Shown here: positions 9,133-32,109 of the stretch, piece after piece
How positions within the stretch are numbered: position 1 is the first letter of the stretch
How the letters are laid out: every line of letters starts with the position of its first letter
Virus record (IMG/VR): IMGVR_UViG_3300046171_000158
Span: 1 to 36,777 of that record
Origin: a virus
DNA length: 36,777 nt
Reading direction: 5' to 3' (one strand)
Translations under genes and position numbers: made by a program
Notes under the pieces: generated by a model
Told to the model about the DNA's origin: nothing
What the model saw: the letters and a program-made list of their open reading frames with translations, nothing else
Database searches by the model: none

Positions 9133-10207
9133 TTAGCTGAAACGACCGTTTCCACGCGCCCAGTCGGCGGCCCAAACCTGTTCGGGAGTACGGCCTGAGC
9201 GGGTGTTGTCTTCGATGTAAAGACGGTACAGCTTGTGATCGCTTCCCCACCATCCACTTTCAGATGAGCTGAAAGCATCGCCGCCAAAACCCATGACGGC
9301 GTAAGGGGTTCTCACGCCTTGAGCACTGCCATTATTCGAGACCCCTTGGCCTAGATCAATACCGTGGGCCTGCTGATCCCATGCGGCAACAGTTTTTGTG
9401 CCAACTGTTCCATCATCAATTAACCACTTTTCACGCCATAGGGACGCTGAGGCATCCCAGTACCAGGCGTAACCAATGCGATAAATCGTGGCAGTTGATG
9501 GACTCGCGAGGACTGTTTGCGAGTTGGTGACATAGCTGTTACTCGAACCGCTGGTGCGGAAATCGGCAAACGCTCCTGTTTGGTCCCGCTTGACGCTAAT
9601 CCCAGCAGAACTAGCCGCGAGCCCAAAACCTGGATAACCCGAACCGCCTGGGACGGTGTTGGTCAAATTTCGATTAAATAGCTCTTTTTTGCTGCTGGTT
9701 CCTAATTTTATCCATACGCTCACGGTGTAACCGTGGGAGGGGTCATCAATAGGATAACGACCATCTCGCTCTGACTCGATGTAGCGTAGCCGCTTGGAGC
9801 CGTCTGTAATTGCATTTAGCCCGTTAAATGTCCCAGCGGGGTGATCAGGCTGGTCAGGAAACCAGAAATAAGGCGCAGCTCCACCTGCATAACCGATGCC
9901 TGCGCGATAGATGACCAGCCGCATCCTCCATATCAGTCGGCACCCCGCTTGCTCCAGGCCCCTTCTCGCGCAGCACATGATTCCCAATCAGAACCCCAGT
10001 CGTGGCGATGCCATTGTCTGTCAGTGAATAGAGTGCAGCGTTGTATGCGCTGGCAGTTGCAGCATTATTGGTGAGACCAGAAACGCTGTAGCTGTTCGCA
10101 GCATCGATCAGATACCTACCGCCAACATCAGGTAGCACTGGATCACGCTTCAGGAGCGGTAGCGTGGTATCAGTAAACGCGGTGCTCAGACGAGTGATAA
10201 GGGTCAT
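9133..10207 (-). CDS. Tail-associated protein with a LamG-like domain (frame broken near 9924)
   Basis: The N-terminus (MTLITRLSTAFTDTTLPLLK, then GRYLIDAANSYSVSGLTNN) is read from ATG 10207 and stops at 9854. From about 9925 the next frame continues with LVIYRAGIGYAGG and runs to 9133. An extra G near 9924 (GCGGCTGG) explains it; repaired length is 357 aa. The second part has concanavalin/LamG features: YTVSVWIKLGTSS, KKELFNR, a strand-rich middle and DHKLYRLYIEDNTRSG. Such beta-sandwich proteins lie on tails and may bind host polysaccharide. It is placed between a hydrolase fibre and the lysis genes. Confidence 0.65.
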
Positions 10208-10213
10208 TGAGGA

Positions 10214-13200
10214 TTACCAGCCTTGAGTGAGGATGAAATTGGCGACCAAAAACCGGACAAATTCCTTCCCATAGGTCGAAAGATGAACATTATCGGCGAA
10301 CATTGCCCTTGGCATGTAACCATTGCCAACGTCCCACTCATTATAGGCATTGGCTACGTCAATGCTTCCGTCCTGGTTAAACACATCGTTGCCAGGAGTG
10401 GCGCTACCAATGGAGCCAACAGTGGCTGTGATCGCCGCGCTGTTGCCGATTGCTCCGGCTGGGATCGTCACGGTGTCAGAGGCCGCATAATTATGGCCGG
10501 GCTCCCTGATCCAGATAGCGGTTGCAACGCCTCCTGATGCAACAACGCCTAGGCGCAGAGCAACGCCACTGCCATCAGTGGTCGTGTCAACGCTGGCAGT
10601 GTTCTGGGTGCCGCTGGTGCCATTATTAACTAGCGTGACGGCAGTGACGCCTGAAGTCGTTGTTTGACGAAAGCTGGCATTAGCGCCAAGCCCATCCCAC
10701 GCGTACGGAGATGTTGAACTCGAATAAATAGCAGGATAGTTGCTGTTAAACCAAGCCTTAAAGCTGCTAACTGACAATGAAGAATTGCCGTTCAAAGAAG
10801 CATCGATAATGCTTAAATAGCGGTCACTGTAGTTATTAATATAAGCTTGCTCTACCACATCAGTAGTTTTAACAACGGTTCCATAATCATTTATATTGCT
10901 GATAGCTTTTGTGCTGCTGGCTACTGCATTTAGCATCACATACTTTTTGCTTAATGCCGTTAAGCCTTGATTAATTATGGCGTCAAGAACGATCATTTCC
11001 ATCGTCGCTGGGTCGTCTCCGCCTGAACCGTGTGGGCCAAAGGGCCAAAGGATTTGAATGGAGTTAAGTAGATCTTCCATATTAGTTTGCGGATAACTTT
11101 GATCCGTCCCAAAGCCGTTATTAGTAATTGGCACGACTTTTTGGGGACCGTTCACAGTCACTGCATCACCTGCAGTTTCTCTTTCAAAGTAATAACCACT
11201 ATTGACGTAAAAATCAAGCGAAACAGATGACAGCGCAGACACATTGCTGGCGCTTAAGGTTAATGCTGTGCCCGAAATACCAGTAACCGTAGTGCCTAAT
11301 ATTATTTTGTCTTCATTGCCATCTGTTTGCTTGACCAACATTCCGATTGCTATTCCTGTTGCGTCTGCCACTGCAATAGTGGGTGCGTCTGCGCTACCTG
11401 TTCCCGTGGTCGTTACTGATGACGCTGTTTGGCGTTTAATTTTGCCAATCACACCCCCCACCCGCTGGCGTGGCATCTTGGCAATAAAGTTACTGTACTC
11501 AAACGGATCAAGATTTAACCCTTTTTCAGTTGCAAAATCTGTATAGATTGCAGCTCGCATATTATTGACTGTTGTATTCCCAGATGCGTTAATTTGCCCT
11601 CCTGGCACTTCAACAGTCCAGCCTGCAGCTCCCATCTGCATGGCGATAACAATTGAGCTGAGACCCCCGCTGCCTTGGTTGCGGAATGCGCGGCTATACC
11701 CCGTTTCGCCTGCATCTATAAATGACTGCTCAGTGGTACTCACTCCAAATGTTCCCGACATCGAGTCACCCCAAAGCGTCAGATCACTGGTGCCAAGCGC
11801 CGGAGCTGAACGACTGCCGTCTGCGTCCATAACATACCGTTCTGATGCCCCATTTCGGGTGGTAAAAAATAATATTCGCTTTTGAGTTTCATCAGTAAGC
11901 GAGATGCCGAAGTTGTCGCCTTGTGTTGTCAGCTGACTTTCGATGCCATTGTAGTAACGATAAATTTGATGGTTTGTACCGTCAGAACGTGACTCAAACA
12001 ACCCTAGCGACCCACCCGCTATGCTGTTAGAAGTTACAGCTAACCGCTCCCCCCTAATCGTCAATTCATCAAAATCAGCCTTGGGAAAATAATGTTTACC
12101 TGATGTAAGAATAGCGCGGGAAATTCGATTGTTATCGTCTAACTCAACTTCTGCATAAGCTTCATAGCCTAGTTCTGTTTTCGTGGCAACTGCTCCGTTA
12201 ACATCAAACGATCCATCAGATTTAAGGCCATATCCAACACGCCCCGCAGAATCTAAAACTACTTTATAATACCCCGATCCATCCGTGTAAGATAAATCTT
12301 CTTCTGAAGATGAGCTGCCAACAAACGCAGATGAATTGGTCCTAATTGATTCTTCTGCAATCCATACCTGACCTGCTTCATTCCATTCAAATTTGACGTT
12401 ATCTGCCGCACCTCGATCAACTTCAATGCCTGCGCTGCCTAATGAAACTCCATTGCCTGATTCTCCCTTGTTCAGGAGAATTGTATTGTCTTCAATAGTA
12501 AGGTTAGTTACTTCAATAGTAACGGTTTCGCCTTGGACCAATAAATCACCCTCAATAGTGACATCACTTTTAAAAGTGCTATCGCCTTGAAAAGTGCTAT
12601 CGTTTTCAAATAAAGCTTTTATGATCGCAACGGTTCCATCATTTTTGATTCCCCAAGCAATACGACCGAAAGTGTCAACTTCAACCCGCGCATAGTCAGA
12701 TCCATCTGCAAGACTAACATCTTCTTGAACTTTTGCGGCGTCCAAGTTAATGTTGCCACTTGGCACATCAAACGATCCATCATCCTTAAGACCATATCCA
12801 ATTTGACCTGCAGAATCAACAACGGCATGGCTGTATCCTGAACCATCCGTGTAACTGTCGTCATCTTCAACCTCGGCGCTGCCAATCCGTAGCGGGTTAA
12901 ATGTGTCGTTTAAAAATGCAGCTGCAAATCGTGTTCCAGTCGCAAAAGTAACATCACTTGTATAGCTTTGATTTGAAACAAATGAATATGTGGTGCCGCT
13001 ACGGCTAAGTGTTCCGTAGACCGTACCGAGCACGCCTGTGATGCTGGTACCGTCTGTCAGATAGGACGAATCAGCAACGCTGACAGTCAGTGGGCCAGTG
13101 CTGCCTGCGGTAAGCGTTGCCGGTGCTGTCAGTAAAACAGACGCGGTGCCTTCAACCAGCGCAAAAACTCGTTGAACTTCGGCGACAACTTCCGCCCACG

Positions 13201-13474
13201 GCGTTCCGCTCATCTCTGACCAATTGTTGCCGTCATAAATGCTTAATACCTGTGTGCTCGGCCTAAACCATAGTGTTTGCTTTGCTGGTGTAGATGGAGC
13301 AGTCTCAGCAATCTTGACGCCACCAACCCGCTGAATGTTGCCCGCTGAATCCTTACAAGAAAGAAACGCACCTTCTTCGTTGTAGTTAAGTGCTAGCTCG
13401 CCATCAGCAAGTTGTGCAGCAGTAGGGCGCTTGTCCTCTACGTTGCTGTTCTTAAGAATTAGCTGTACTGCCAT
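10214..13474 (-). CDS. Tail fibre with C-terminal SGNH/GDSL hydrolase (1086 aa)
   Basis: The N-terminus (QLILKNSNVEDKRPTAAQLA, then NYNEEGAFLSCKD) resembles the particle-attachment start of cyanophage fibres. Residues about 100-470 are repeat-rich beta structure with a recurring YTDGSGY...VVDSAG...GYGLK.DGSFDV unit. From about 560 a SGNH hydrolase begins: LWGDSMSG has the nucleophile S571, and the closing block ADNVHLSTYG near the C-terminus supplies D1061 and H1064. About 490 residues lie between; two segments look like inserted beta domains (roughly 690-760 and 940-1020, the latter rich in TTSGVTAVTLVNNG-like sequence). The enzyme probably deacylates a surface glycan of the host. It lies downstream of the 1305-aa tail protein. 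Confidence 0.75.
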   Translation of the reverse strand: MAVQLILKNSNVEDKRPTAAQLADGELALNYNEEGAFLSCKDSAGNIQRVGGVKIAETAPSTPAKQTLWFRPSTQVLSIYDGNNWSEMSGTPWAEVVAEVQRVFALVEGTASVLLTAPATLTAGSTGPLTVSVADSSYLTDGTSITGVLGTVYGTLSRSGTTYSFVSNQSYTSDVTFATGTRFAAAFLNDTFNPLRIGSAEVEDDDSYTDGSGYSHAVVDSAGQIGYGLKDDGSFDVPSGNINLDAAKVQEDVSLADGSDYARVEVDTFGRIAWGIKNDGTVAIIKALFENDSTFQGDSTFKSDVTIEGDLLVQGETVTIEVTNLTIEDNTILLNKGESGNGVSLGSAGIEVDRGAADNVKFEWNEAGQVWIAEESIRTNSSAFVGSSSSEEDLSYTDGSGYYKVVLDSAGRVGYGLKSDGSFDVNGAVATKTELGYEAYAEVELDDNNRISRAILTSGKHYFPKADFDELTIRGERLAVTSNSIAGGSLGLFESRSDGTNHQIYRYYNGIESQLTTQGDNFGISLTDETQKRILFFTTRNGASERYVMDADGSRSAPALGTSDLTLWGDSMSGTFGVSTTEQSFIDAGETGYSRAFRNQGSGGLSSIVIAMQMGAAGWTVEVPGGQINASGNTTVNNMRAAIYTDFATEKGLNLDPFEYSNFIAKMPRQRVGGVIGKIKRQTASSVTTTGTGSADAPTIAVADATGIAIGMLVKQTDGNEDKIILGTTVTGISGTALTLSASNVSALSSVSLDFYVNSGYYFERETAGDAVTVNGPQKVVPITNNGFGTDQSYPQTNMEDLLNSIQILWPFGPHGSGGDDPATMEMIVLDAIINQGLTALSKKYVMLNAVASSTKAISNINDYGTVVKTTDVVEQAYINNYSDRYLSIIDASLNGNSSLSVSSFKAWFNSNYPAIYSSSTSPYAWDGLGANASFRQTTTSGVTAVTLVNNGTSGTQNTASVDTTTDGSGVALRLGVVASGGVATAIWIREPGHNYAASDTVTIPAGAIGNSAAITATVGSIGSATPGNDVFNQDGSIDVANAYNEWDVGNGYMPRAMFADNVHLSTYGKEFVRFLVANFILTQGW
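12209..12870 (-). repeat. Direct repeats in the tail fibre gene
   Basis: A block of about 90-100 bases encoding YTDGSGY through GYGLKxDGSFDV occurs near 12209-12300 and again near 12766-12870. Both share stretches such as ACATCAAACGATCCATCA on the plus strand. A more diverged third unit (SLADGSDYARVEVDTFGR) lies between. They encode successive fibre-shaft repeats. Confidence 0.7.
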
Positions 13475-29640: not shown

Positions 29641-32109
29641 TCAGCTAGCGAAGCAGAAGGCAGAAGGCTGCTTGACAGCAAAGTCAACATCCTGAAGAGC
29701 AATGACGCGAACGGTGCCAGCAGTAGCGCCAGCATAAGGATCAACAGTCAGATCCAAGCCGGACCACATGCCCATGATGAACATGGAGAAGTCACCGAAC
29801 AGTGCATCGTTGGCGGCAAGCTGGTTGGAAACGATCACCGGATAACCGTTGATCTCATTGTTGTCAAAAAGGAATTCGCCGCTGCCAGCGTCCTTCTTGG
29901 TTCCCTTCAAGCCGCCACGGGTGGTGGCGTTGACGATGTAACGGAGTGCGCCAGCATCAGCGTTAGCCGCAGCAACGTCGGTCTCCATCGCGATGTACTC
30001 AGTGAAGGTGCCGGTGCCCGTAAGGGTCTCGGAGCCAATACCGCTCACGTTGGTCAAGCCTTGAGGCTGGTTGGAAGAGCCGGTGCCGTAAATGGCAGCG
30101 CGGTCGATTTCCAATGCGATCACACGGGCAAGGTCGTTGCGAACCATGCCTTCAACGTCAATGCTGCTTTGAAGCAGAAGACGACGTGAGTAGTCAACAA
30201 AAGCACCCACGGTCTTGGGTGTCATGTTCACCTGATCGATGGCCTGCTGGGACTCGGTGGGAGAAGCGTTCTCACCAACCCAGTAAGCAGTGGCAGCCGA
30301 AGTCTGGCGAGGAATTGACACATTGCCCTGAAGGCCGGTCAGCATCGTTGCGCCAGCTTGAGCAATTGCCAAGCGGTTACGAAGCAGGTCGATGAAGGAT
30401 CCAGCCAAGAGCACGTCGTCAACCAAGTCACCACCAGCTGTAGGTGTGCCTACAACCAAGTCGCGACGGAGGACTTCGTTAGGAATGACGATGCCGTTTG
30501 AAGAACGCTCGTACTGCTTGGCAGCAGCCTCGCCAACTTCGATTTCAAATGCTGCATCGCGACGAGCCTGAGCATCACCCTGGTTAGAGAGATAGTTCAG
30601 AGCTTTGACGAAGCTGAAGCTACGGGTCTCCTTATCGGAGAGGCCGATGTCGTTGGCGGTGATACTGTGTTCCACGGGTTGAGTTCCGATTTTTTCGAGG
30701 ACAGCAGCGCGAGCCTCATCGACGGACTGTCCGCCAGAGATTAATTCGCGTGCAAGATCGGAGAGGTTGTGACGCTCACCGAGTTTGTTGATGGATGCAA
30801 TCCGGGTACGCTCGGCCTCTACGGCCTCGGACCGGATCACCTCCACATCAGTAGTGGTGCTTTCCATGACTTCAGTCACTGTGTTTACGGGGGATACGGT
30901 CGAAGCCGCAGTATCGGTGTCAAAGTCAACGTTCTCTAAAGAACGCTCAACTTCAACGTTTGTGTCAGCATTGGGTTCTATTAAAGAACGTCCAATTCCG
31001 ACAGTGGGATCAGCTGGTAAACTAACCAAGCTGATTTCGTAACCTCGCCAATTGGTGGCTACGAACTCACTTTCGCGCTCTTCCATTTTATCAATGGAAT
31101 AACCGAAAGAAACGCCGCGAAGTATTCCATCGCGAACGTCGTCGAGCATTTCTTGCGCAAGTTTATTGCGCGAAAAACGCACTTTGGCATAACCACGCTT
31201 TTTGTCCCCATCAATCCACGCACGTTCGACAACGCCGATCATGCGATCTGGATCATGGTTATAAAGAAGCGGTGCGCCATCATTAAGCCGCTCAAGGTTG
31301 GCGGCTGCCATTTCATGGCTCAGGACTTCGTTTCCAAAGTAACGAGCCACGGGATACTCAGAGCTGAATGGAAATTCCATGCTCCTTTCATCAACCATCC
31401 TGAAACTTGTAGCTTCAGAACGCTGGAAGGTTTTACCTTCAAGGTCGCGAGACAATTCTTCTTTAGAACTCTCTTCTGCGACGACATCTGGCACCTCCGA
31501 AGTAAGTTCCATTGCGCGTAATGCTTCGATCTTTTTCAGTGTACTGAATCTATGCCCTACATAAACATCAGTACCCTCCCATCCATCATTACCTTCGCGA
31601 TAAATTTGAATTAATGCTGCTGGATTGTCTTCTTCGCCCTTAACAACAACTTCGCTGTCAGGTACGTCAATCTGACCGTCACGAACGACTTTCGTGATCT
31701 TGCCTTGTGCGCTGCCGCCAGACGAACTCCAGCGAACAAAGTCGCCAACCTTTAGGCCATCAGGCTCGGCACGAAGTTCTTCCTGTTCCGTTGAGCGATC
31801 CATGGATTCAACAATTCGGTCTGACCATGTTTTACCAGCATCGCCGCCCCAGGCAGCCCAGGCGACACGGCCAGGAGAAGGATAACCTTCCTCGCCGGAG
31901 CTAAACCCCTCAGCCTTTTTATCCACTTCATGCCGCGCAAACCATGCGCTCATTGCAATAATCACATCGTCGCTCAATTCATTACCACTCAAAATCTGAG
32001 TAGCGCGACGAGCGGCAACTTCAGTGCCGCCTTTTTCTCCTTCTGATTTCCAATCCTTGTAACGTTGCGCCTCTTCGCGCATACCTTCAGTTGGCATTGC
32101 AGGCATCAC
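29641..32109 (-). CDS. Fused prohead protease and HK97-type major capsid protein (822 aa)
   Basis: One unbroken frame carries five parts. Residues about 1-100 include the phage-protein segment SAWFARHEVDKKAEG and GRVAWAAWGGDAGK. About 115-195 is a small barrel like the hypervirulence-associated TUDOR domain (KVGDFVRWSSSGGSAQGKI). About 225-375 is a U35-type prohead protease with LLYNHDPDRMIG (H285) and GVSFGYSID (S334). About 375-530 is an acidic, helical linker that could serve as scaffold. About 535-822 is the HK97-fold coat (IVIPNEVLRRD, GGDLVDDVLLAGSF, AYWVGENASPTES). Self-cleavage should release the coat, perhaps near 400-540, but the cut site is unknown. The start overlaps the portal stop by 4 bases. 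Confidence 0.9.
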   Translation of the reverse strand: MMPAMPTEGMREEAQRYKDWKSEGEKGGTEVAARRATQILSGNELSDDVIIAMSAWFARHEVDKKAEGFSSGEEGYPSPGRVAWAAWGGDAGKTWSDRIVESMDRSTEQEELRAEPDGLKVGDFVRWSSSGGSAQGKITKVVRDGQIDVPDSEVVVKGEEDNPAALIQIYREGNDGWEGTDVYVGHRFSTLKKIEALRAMELTSEVPDVVAEESSKEELSRDLEGKTFQRSEATSFRMVDERSMEFPFSSEYPVARYFGNEVLSHEMAAANLERLNDGAPLLYNHDPDRMIGVVERAWIDGDKKRGYAKVRFSRNKLAQEMLDDVRDGILRGVSFGYSIDKMEERESEFVATNWRGYEISLVSLPADPTVGIGRSLIEPNADTNVEVERSLENVDFDTDTAASTVSPVNTVTEVMESTTTDVEVIRSEAVEAERTRIASINKLGERHNLSDLARELISGGQSVDEARAAVLEKIGTQPVEHSITANDIGLSDKETRSFSFVKALNYLSNQGDAQARRDAAFEIEVGEAAAKQYERSSNGIVIPNEVLRRDLVVGTPTAGGDLVDDVLLAGSFIDLLRNRLAIAQAGATMLTGLQGNVSIPRQTSAATAYWVGENASPTESQQAIDQVNMTPKTVGAFVDYSRRLLLQSSIDVEGMVRNDLARVIALEIDRAAIYGTGSSNQPQGLTNVSGIGSETLTGTGTFTEYIAMETDVAAANADAGALRYIVNATTRGGLKGTKKDAGSGEFLFDNNEINGYPVIVSNQLAANDALFGDFSMFIMGMWSGLDLTVDPYAGATAGTVRVIALQDVDFAVKQPSAFCFAS

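Follow-up and report, generated by a model that had tools for sequence, protein, structure and literature searches.

A phage tail-fibre tip read as an SGNH-type esterase interrupted by inserted beta modules

Introduction

The window analysed here, that is, the whole 36,777-nucleotide stretch of a viral record (IMG/VR IMGVR_UViG_3300046171_000158), encodes a tail fibre in which a GDS motif with S571 and a D1061-x2-H1064 block lie 490 residues apart. An initial annotation took the two motifs to bracket one SGNH hydrolase domain, for which 200-250 residues would be expected, and ascribed the excess to two beta-domain insertions. The locus thus raises the question of whether the two ends belong to one enzyme, what lies between them, and what such an enzyme might do at the end of a fibre.

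Results

The tail-fibre gene and its neighbourhood

The tail-fibre open reading frame occupies positions 10214-13474 on the minus strand, begins with ATG and encodes 1086 aa, while the plus strand of the same interval is stop-rich. Both motifs were found in it as described, S571 within SDLTLWGDSM and D1061/H1064 within FADNVHLSTYG. Residues 389-690 match PHROG 11419, annotated as 'tail fiber protein', at E 1.9e-11. In the reading direction, the genes preceding the fibre match PHROGs for terminase, portal, a fused protease/major head protein and tail terminator, followed by tape measure, J-like protein and a second fibre; a Phage_lysozyme gene comes after it. The terminases most similar to that of the window are from Roseobacter and Synechococcus phages, at about 38-46%. 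The features to which we refer below are as follows.

10214..13474, minus strand: tail-fibre gene, 1086 aa (open reading frame; PHROG 11419 match; downstream of the tape-measure and J-like genes)
13199..13474, minus strand: N-terminal segment, residues 1-92 (alignments; unlike that of relative L002)
11840..13198, minus strand: shaft, residues 93-545 (common to relatives with quite different tips)
10217..11821, minus strand: predicted SGNH-type esterase tip including insertions, residues 552-1086 (profile, blastp, alignment, model)
11762..11764, minus strand: S571, putative Block I nucleophile, in WGDSM (20-tip comparison)
11654..11683, minus strand: Block II (Gly), residues 598-607, RNQGSGGLSS (alignment; stretch 97-149 of PDB 9sij)
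11102..11611, minus strand: beta insert A, residues ~622-791, separating Block II from Block III and enclosing module B (approximate bounds)
11204..11434, minus strand: module B, nested in A, residues ~681-757 (approximate bounds; comparison of relatives)
11030..11053, minus strand: Block III position, residues 808-815, ILWPFGPH (Asn absent, His815 conserved)
10355..10720, minus strand: insert C, residues ~919-1040 (its compact beta domain spans 942-1023, numbered 403-484 in the model)
10283..10294, minus strand: Block V, D1061-N-V-H1064 (20-tip comparison)

Two other genes of the window deserve mention. The fused protease/capsid gene (29641-32109, minus strand) is a single 822-aa open reading frame matching both the head maturation protease and the major head protein families. 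In the gene that follows the fibre (9133-10207, minus strand), the frame is broken in the window into overlapping open reading frames of 117 and 284 aa; its homologues are intact in two related contigs (357 aa in L004 and 316 aa in L010), and the break probably reflects either an error in the sequence or a frameshift of recent origin. The downstream gene of a further contig (L012:6334-7404) appears, from a translation judged by eye, to encode a phage lysozyme-like domain joined to a second, peptidase-like one.

A common shaft with different tips

Relatives of the fibre, here given L numbers, were collected from IMG/VR scans and show several kinds of tip on one shaft; scans of genome contigs yielded no relative. 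Closest are the tips of L002 (99% identity), L003 and L004 (90-91%) and L009 (79%, truncated by the contig end), followed by the distant L010-L013 (~34%). The L041 tip matches that of the window by blastp (1e-50) over tip residues 6-119 and 219-547, which flank module B, and L031 matches it collinearly in an N-terminal (2e-7) and a C-terminal part (1e-6). More remote SGNH tips are those of L039 and of L005/L040; against a tip profile, that of L005 reaches 52.9 bits, compared with 4.4 for the best of 500 shuffles. L033-L036 carry on the same shaft a tip of the SASA type, the match to Pfam SASA having an E of 5e-10 in the L035 tip and of 4.8e-10 in L034, while Pfam finds no family for the L037 tip, and L032 and L038 are truncated before the tip. 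That one shaft bears such differing tips indicates that the fibre exchanges them, mostly for other esterases.

When the window is compared with L002 (start of L002:4989-8225), the first 92 residues are strongly different and the tips 99% identical, so that this pair, judged from the alignment, represents an exchange at both fibre ends. In the shafts of L005, L009 and L010, short repeats of the VQGNST/VEGNST type vary in number, and their number possibly tunes shaft length.

Catalytic blocks and their link to solved tail spikes

In a comparison of 20 tips, which excludes L009 and L040 as their contigs stop short of Block V, the Block I Ser is aligned in every tip and the D-x-x-H of Block V in 19, the exception being phage Wocket. 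The Ser-to-Asp distance is 490 residues in the window, L002, L003 and L004, 443 in L010-L013, 431 in L041 and L042, 399 in L039, 555 in L005, and 285 in the two marine tips L031 and L044. It amounts to 248 in PEAT2, 247 in Bestiario and ReqiPoco6, 250 in CN1A and 252 in Mooshroom; for Wocket the same column gives 251, although the residue aligned there is not the Asp of a D-x-x-H. The expectation of 200-250 residues for an uninterrupted domain was thus borne out, five of the six named-phage tips, all five with the D-x-x-H, falling at 247-252, and the uninterrupted family is about 250 residues long with insert A included. The spacings observed (247-252, 285, 399, 431, 443, 490 and 555) track the inserted modules. 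An alignment of 14 tips has all blocks in register, and codon comparison with L003 and L004 gives a dN/dS of ~0.07 over the tip; the recurrence of the Ser and of the D-x-x-H block in homologues, together with this value, shows that the motif pair is not due to chance.

A profile built from seven tips (window, L003, L010, L012, L041, L031 and L039) reaches PDB entry 9sij, a 371-aa 'Tail spike protein', with an E of 1.4e-13 and 9sim with one of 2.4e-12. Both matches consist of three collinear stretches, corresponding to Block II, to insert A with Block III (IVWGGRN), and to Block V (LREDNLH); in Block II, RNQGSGGLSS is aligned with NFARGGAS of 9sij, the Gly being kept. As single sequences, L031 reaches 9sij at 4.5e-5 and L041 at 0.03, while a profile of the window clade alone finds no 9sij match and only chance PDB matches, e.g. 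to proteasome subunits, so that the link from the window to 9sij goes through L041 and L031. The proteins of Klebsiella phage Bestiario and Pectobacterium phage PEAT2 match the whole enzyme part of 9sij (E 9.5e-82 and 2.1e-53, respectively), with its GHS, GGRN and DNLH blocks visible in these full-length matches, and the ReqiPoco6 homologue is annotated in its record as an SGNH hydrolase tail fibre.

The spikes 9sij/9sik/9sil and 9sim/9sin and the Bestiario and PEAT2 tips share with the window Blocks I, II and V, insert A and the order in which these follow one another, and in the 9sij-type spikes, as in the window, the enzyme is the C-terminal tip of a tail spike. They differ in that Bestiario and PEAT2 have a Ser-Asp distance of 247-248 without B or C, and in that the 9sij-type spikes have GHS in Block I and retain the Asn of Block III. 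Insert A and the collinear blocks place the window among the 9sij-type tail-spike esterases (PHROG 11419-like tips). A search of the open-access literature found no paper on the 9sij, 9sik, 9sil, 9sim and 9sin entries.

Inserts A, B and C

The beta insertions proposed in the initial annotation exist in part as described: extra beta domains do lie within the enzyme, but there are three rather than two, and A is a normal feature of the family. Its pattern, GGxIPASG...GVxGT...FxRxxAGxxVxV, can be followed through the 14 aligned tips, though a few of them break it in places, and is also present in 9sij. Module B was seen only in the window, L002, L003, L004 and L009, being absent from L010-L013, L041, L042, L031, L044 and the six named phages, and tblastn against 50,697 phage records returned no match to it at E<=10. 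We also considered whether B is the same module as two found inside the L005/L040 tips, an identification that was dropped, the scores lying within the range of shuffles. Insert C is shared by the window type, L010-L013 and L041/L042 (46-50% identity), and is absent from L031/L044 and the named phages; at E<=0.1, C-like stretches are found in 97 phage records, almost exclusively from cyanophages, where they belong to virion proteins. In L039, insert A holds an 80-residue copy of that fibre's own shaft domain (37.7%, E 6e-11; L039:5560-6888). Another copy of the shaft domain, 84% identical to that of the window, is found in the upstream open reading frame of L039 (frame 1, 991 aa).

Against L003, the core before C has a dN/dS of 0.03-0.04, B one of 0.10, C one of 0.11 and the last 46 residues one of 0.18; the inserts are thus maintained by selection, if somewhat more loosely. 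Along the tip (10217-11821), dS against L003 is uneven, at ~0.4 in B and the C-terminal end and 0.9-1.4 in the core, a pattern that may reflect recombination within the tip.

What B and C do can be read in two ways. The tip could be an active esterase in which they are passive spacers or trimer contacts, as the resemblance of C to modules of cyanophage virion proteins and the shaft-domain copy within the L039 enzyme would suggest. On the other side stand two precedents: the inserted domains of CE20 enzymes form the substrate cleft (PMC12313940), and NmApe1 carries a carbohydrate-binding module (CBM) within its SGNH domain (PMC9487903). We hold passive inserts to be somewhat short of an even chance, on the understanding that this is a variant of our preferred explanation, with which its confidence overlaps, and not a separate account of the enzyme.

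The Block III position

The Block III Asn that characterizes SGNH enzymes is lacking in the window; among the 14 aligned tips it is found in 9 and absent from the 5 of the window type. The position reads ILWPFGPH in the window, L002, L003 and L004, ILWPFGAH in L010-L013, ILWPNGPH in L041 and L042, and IWWPNQHH in L005, the last being placed by blastp to L010/L012. All 11 window-type tips thus have no Asn at W+4 and a His at W+5 (W-P-x3-H), and L041 and L042 in addition have WSDS for WGDS in Block I. Since this Asn is missing, we file the tip not as a textbook SGNH hydrolase but as an SGNH-fold protein homologous to the 9sij-type tail-spike esterases. Nor does it belong with SASA/CE6, which has HQGE in Block III and a Gln next to the Ser: the window fibre has neither such a motif nor a Pfam SASA match. 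The SASA (CE6) tips of L033-L036 resemble that of the window in having the same shaft, an esterase tip and a D-x-x-H, and differ from it in their GQSN Block I, QGE Block III and Pfam SASA match (E 5e-10).

These substitutions, the Asn missing in 11 of 11 window-type tips and the WSDS of L041/L042, could mean that catalysis was lost along with the Asn and that the SGNH fold was kept as a glycan-binding lectin. We consider this unlikely: all window-type tips preserve the Ser, Asp and His, purifying selection is strong, and several accepted SGNH groups, such as SASA and PatB1, work without a Block III Asn by using different oxyanion donors (PMC9487903). A role for His815 in the oxyanion hole is our working hypothesis.

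A probable single interrupted domain

No Pfam family matches the window tip, even at E 10, which counts against an SGNH reading. AlphaFold2, run on residues 540-1086 as the initial annotation had proposed, gave a pLDDT of 28 from seven close sequences and a modest 52 (pTM 0.50) from ten diverse ones; in the latter model, Block III (model 274-281) and the surroundings of Block V (504-527) stay below a pLDDT of 50, and the beta domain of C is the best-predicted part (942-1023, block means of 68-91). Aligned with VIA, the model matched SGNH/GDSL-type esterases or relatives in all 50 matches listed, counting BT4096 and DltD, which we take to be of this kind. The best match, 1yzf, has a Z of 10.3 and 3.5 A over 170 residues and pairs model 23-546 with chain 1-190; best Z values of 7-8 are common without a clear match, and the top matches exceed this, belong to one superfamily and cover whole domains. 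An alpha/beta/alpha fold that includes both ends is thereby supported, at a pLDDT of only 52. PpCE20_II (9ega), of the CE20 family with its GH2-like ancillary insert and water-mediated triad, was among the matches listed (Z 7.2, rmsd 7.4) and 9sij was not, an absence that excludes nothing. Foldseek returned no match at E<=0.001 against the PDB and 15 against predicted viral proteins (BFVD), including the tail fibres of ReqiPoco6, ReqiPepy6 and CN1A, the first and last of which are also in the 14-tip alignment.

The outcome in which S571 and D1061/H1064 fall into unrelated domains was not seen. Given the collinear relatives, the three stretches of 9sij and a model whose alignment to SGNH esterases extends along almost all of its length, it is very likely, on sequence and model, that residues 552-1086 are one SGNH domain interrupted by insertions. 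That the two motifs are coincidental parts of two unrelated domains, as the 490-residue gap, the missing Pfam match and the weak local model confidence might suggest, is most improbable, because the two ends are collinear with those of L031, only 285 apart, and with 9sij, and because model 23-546 aligns to single SGNH chains.

Discussion

The blocks, the link to 9sij and the fold match together support the view, put forward in the initial annotation, of an SGNH-type enzyme in this tail fibre, of which it would form the tip, and the explanation that we favour, with good confidence, is an interrupted SGNH esterase tip that is glycan-specific and sits on an exchangeable fibre. The C-terminal 535 residues would form one SGNH-type hydrolase domain from two sequence ends held apart by beta modules: A, standard in the family, between Blocks II and III; B, some 75 residues within A itself; and C, of about 120 with its linkers, just before Block V. 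S571, D1061 and H1064 would make up the catalytic triad, and the oxyanion would be held by the backbone of S571 together with the Gly of Block II, His815 or backbone groups probably helping in place of the Asn. By analogy with known fibres, the tip should have esterase activity on a host-surface glycan, most likely as an O-deacetylase acting on acetyl esters, and the inserted modules may contribute to the form of the cleft or bind the sugar chain; attachment would then be reversible and specific for the glycan.

The analogy draws on tail fibres that include two SGNH fibres of Klebsiella prophages that hydrolysed p-nitrophenyl acetate and G7C gp63.1, which strips an O-acetyl group from lipopolysaccharide (PMC13123978). 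Going by their descriptions in PMC13123978 and PMC13082707, gp63.1 and the Klebsiella prophage fibres 164_08-KL2 and 174_38-KL55 resemble the window in having an SGNH esterase at the receptor-binding tip; unlike it, gp63.1 carries a pair of CBM-like domains next to the esterase one. A split architecture is also seen in the CE20 enzymes Fl8CE20_II and PpCE20_II, in which a beta-sandwich ancillary domain divides the SGNH domain and leaves Ser112 about 400 residues from Asp513/His515 (PMC12313940); they differ in having one GH2-like insert and flanking beta-sandwiches, and in being carbohydrate-degrading bacterial enzymes rather than virion tips. As described in PMC9487903, the CBM of NmApe1 is likewise inserted in the SGNH domain, and the viral hemagglutinin-esterases HE/HEF have a similarly non-continuous SGNH domain, but with the canonical Block III Asn.

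With inserted domains documented in CE20 (PMC12313940) and NmApe1 (PMC9487903), the general design is precedented; new with respect to it are the nested arrangement, the additional modules and the altered Block III. Our search of the open-access literature found no paper on nested insertions in SGNH tail fibres. The marine phage tip looks like a known kind of enzyme in which the layered build and the missing active-site residue are unusual. More tentatively, and with the odds rather against it, the lineage may have fixed a conserved His (W-P-x3-H) in place of the Block III Asn in the oxyanion hole and used the enzyme as a platform for virion modules, receptor specificity being changed by insertion and not only by tip swap. 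If true, modules would be landing inside the enzyme, some of them nested in others, and one relative would have received there a duplicate of the shaft domain of its own fibre.

As motif tools miss such tips, the window finding no Pfam match, esterase tips of environmental phages are probably under-counted. The marine contigs offer a natural series in which one fibre carries a varying number of extra modules in its enzyme, and the window-type tips a case in which to test how an SGNH enzyme might work when the Block III Asn is lacking.
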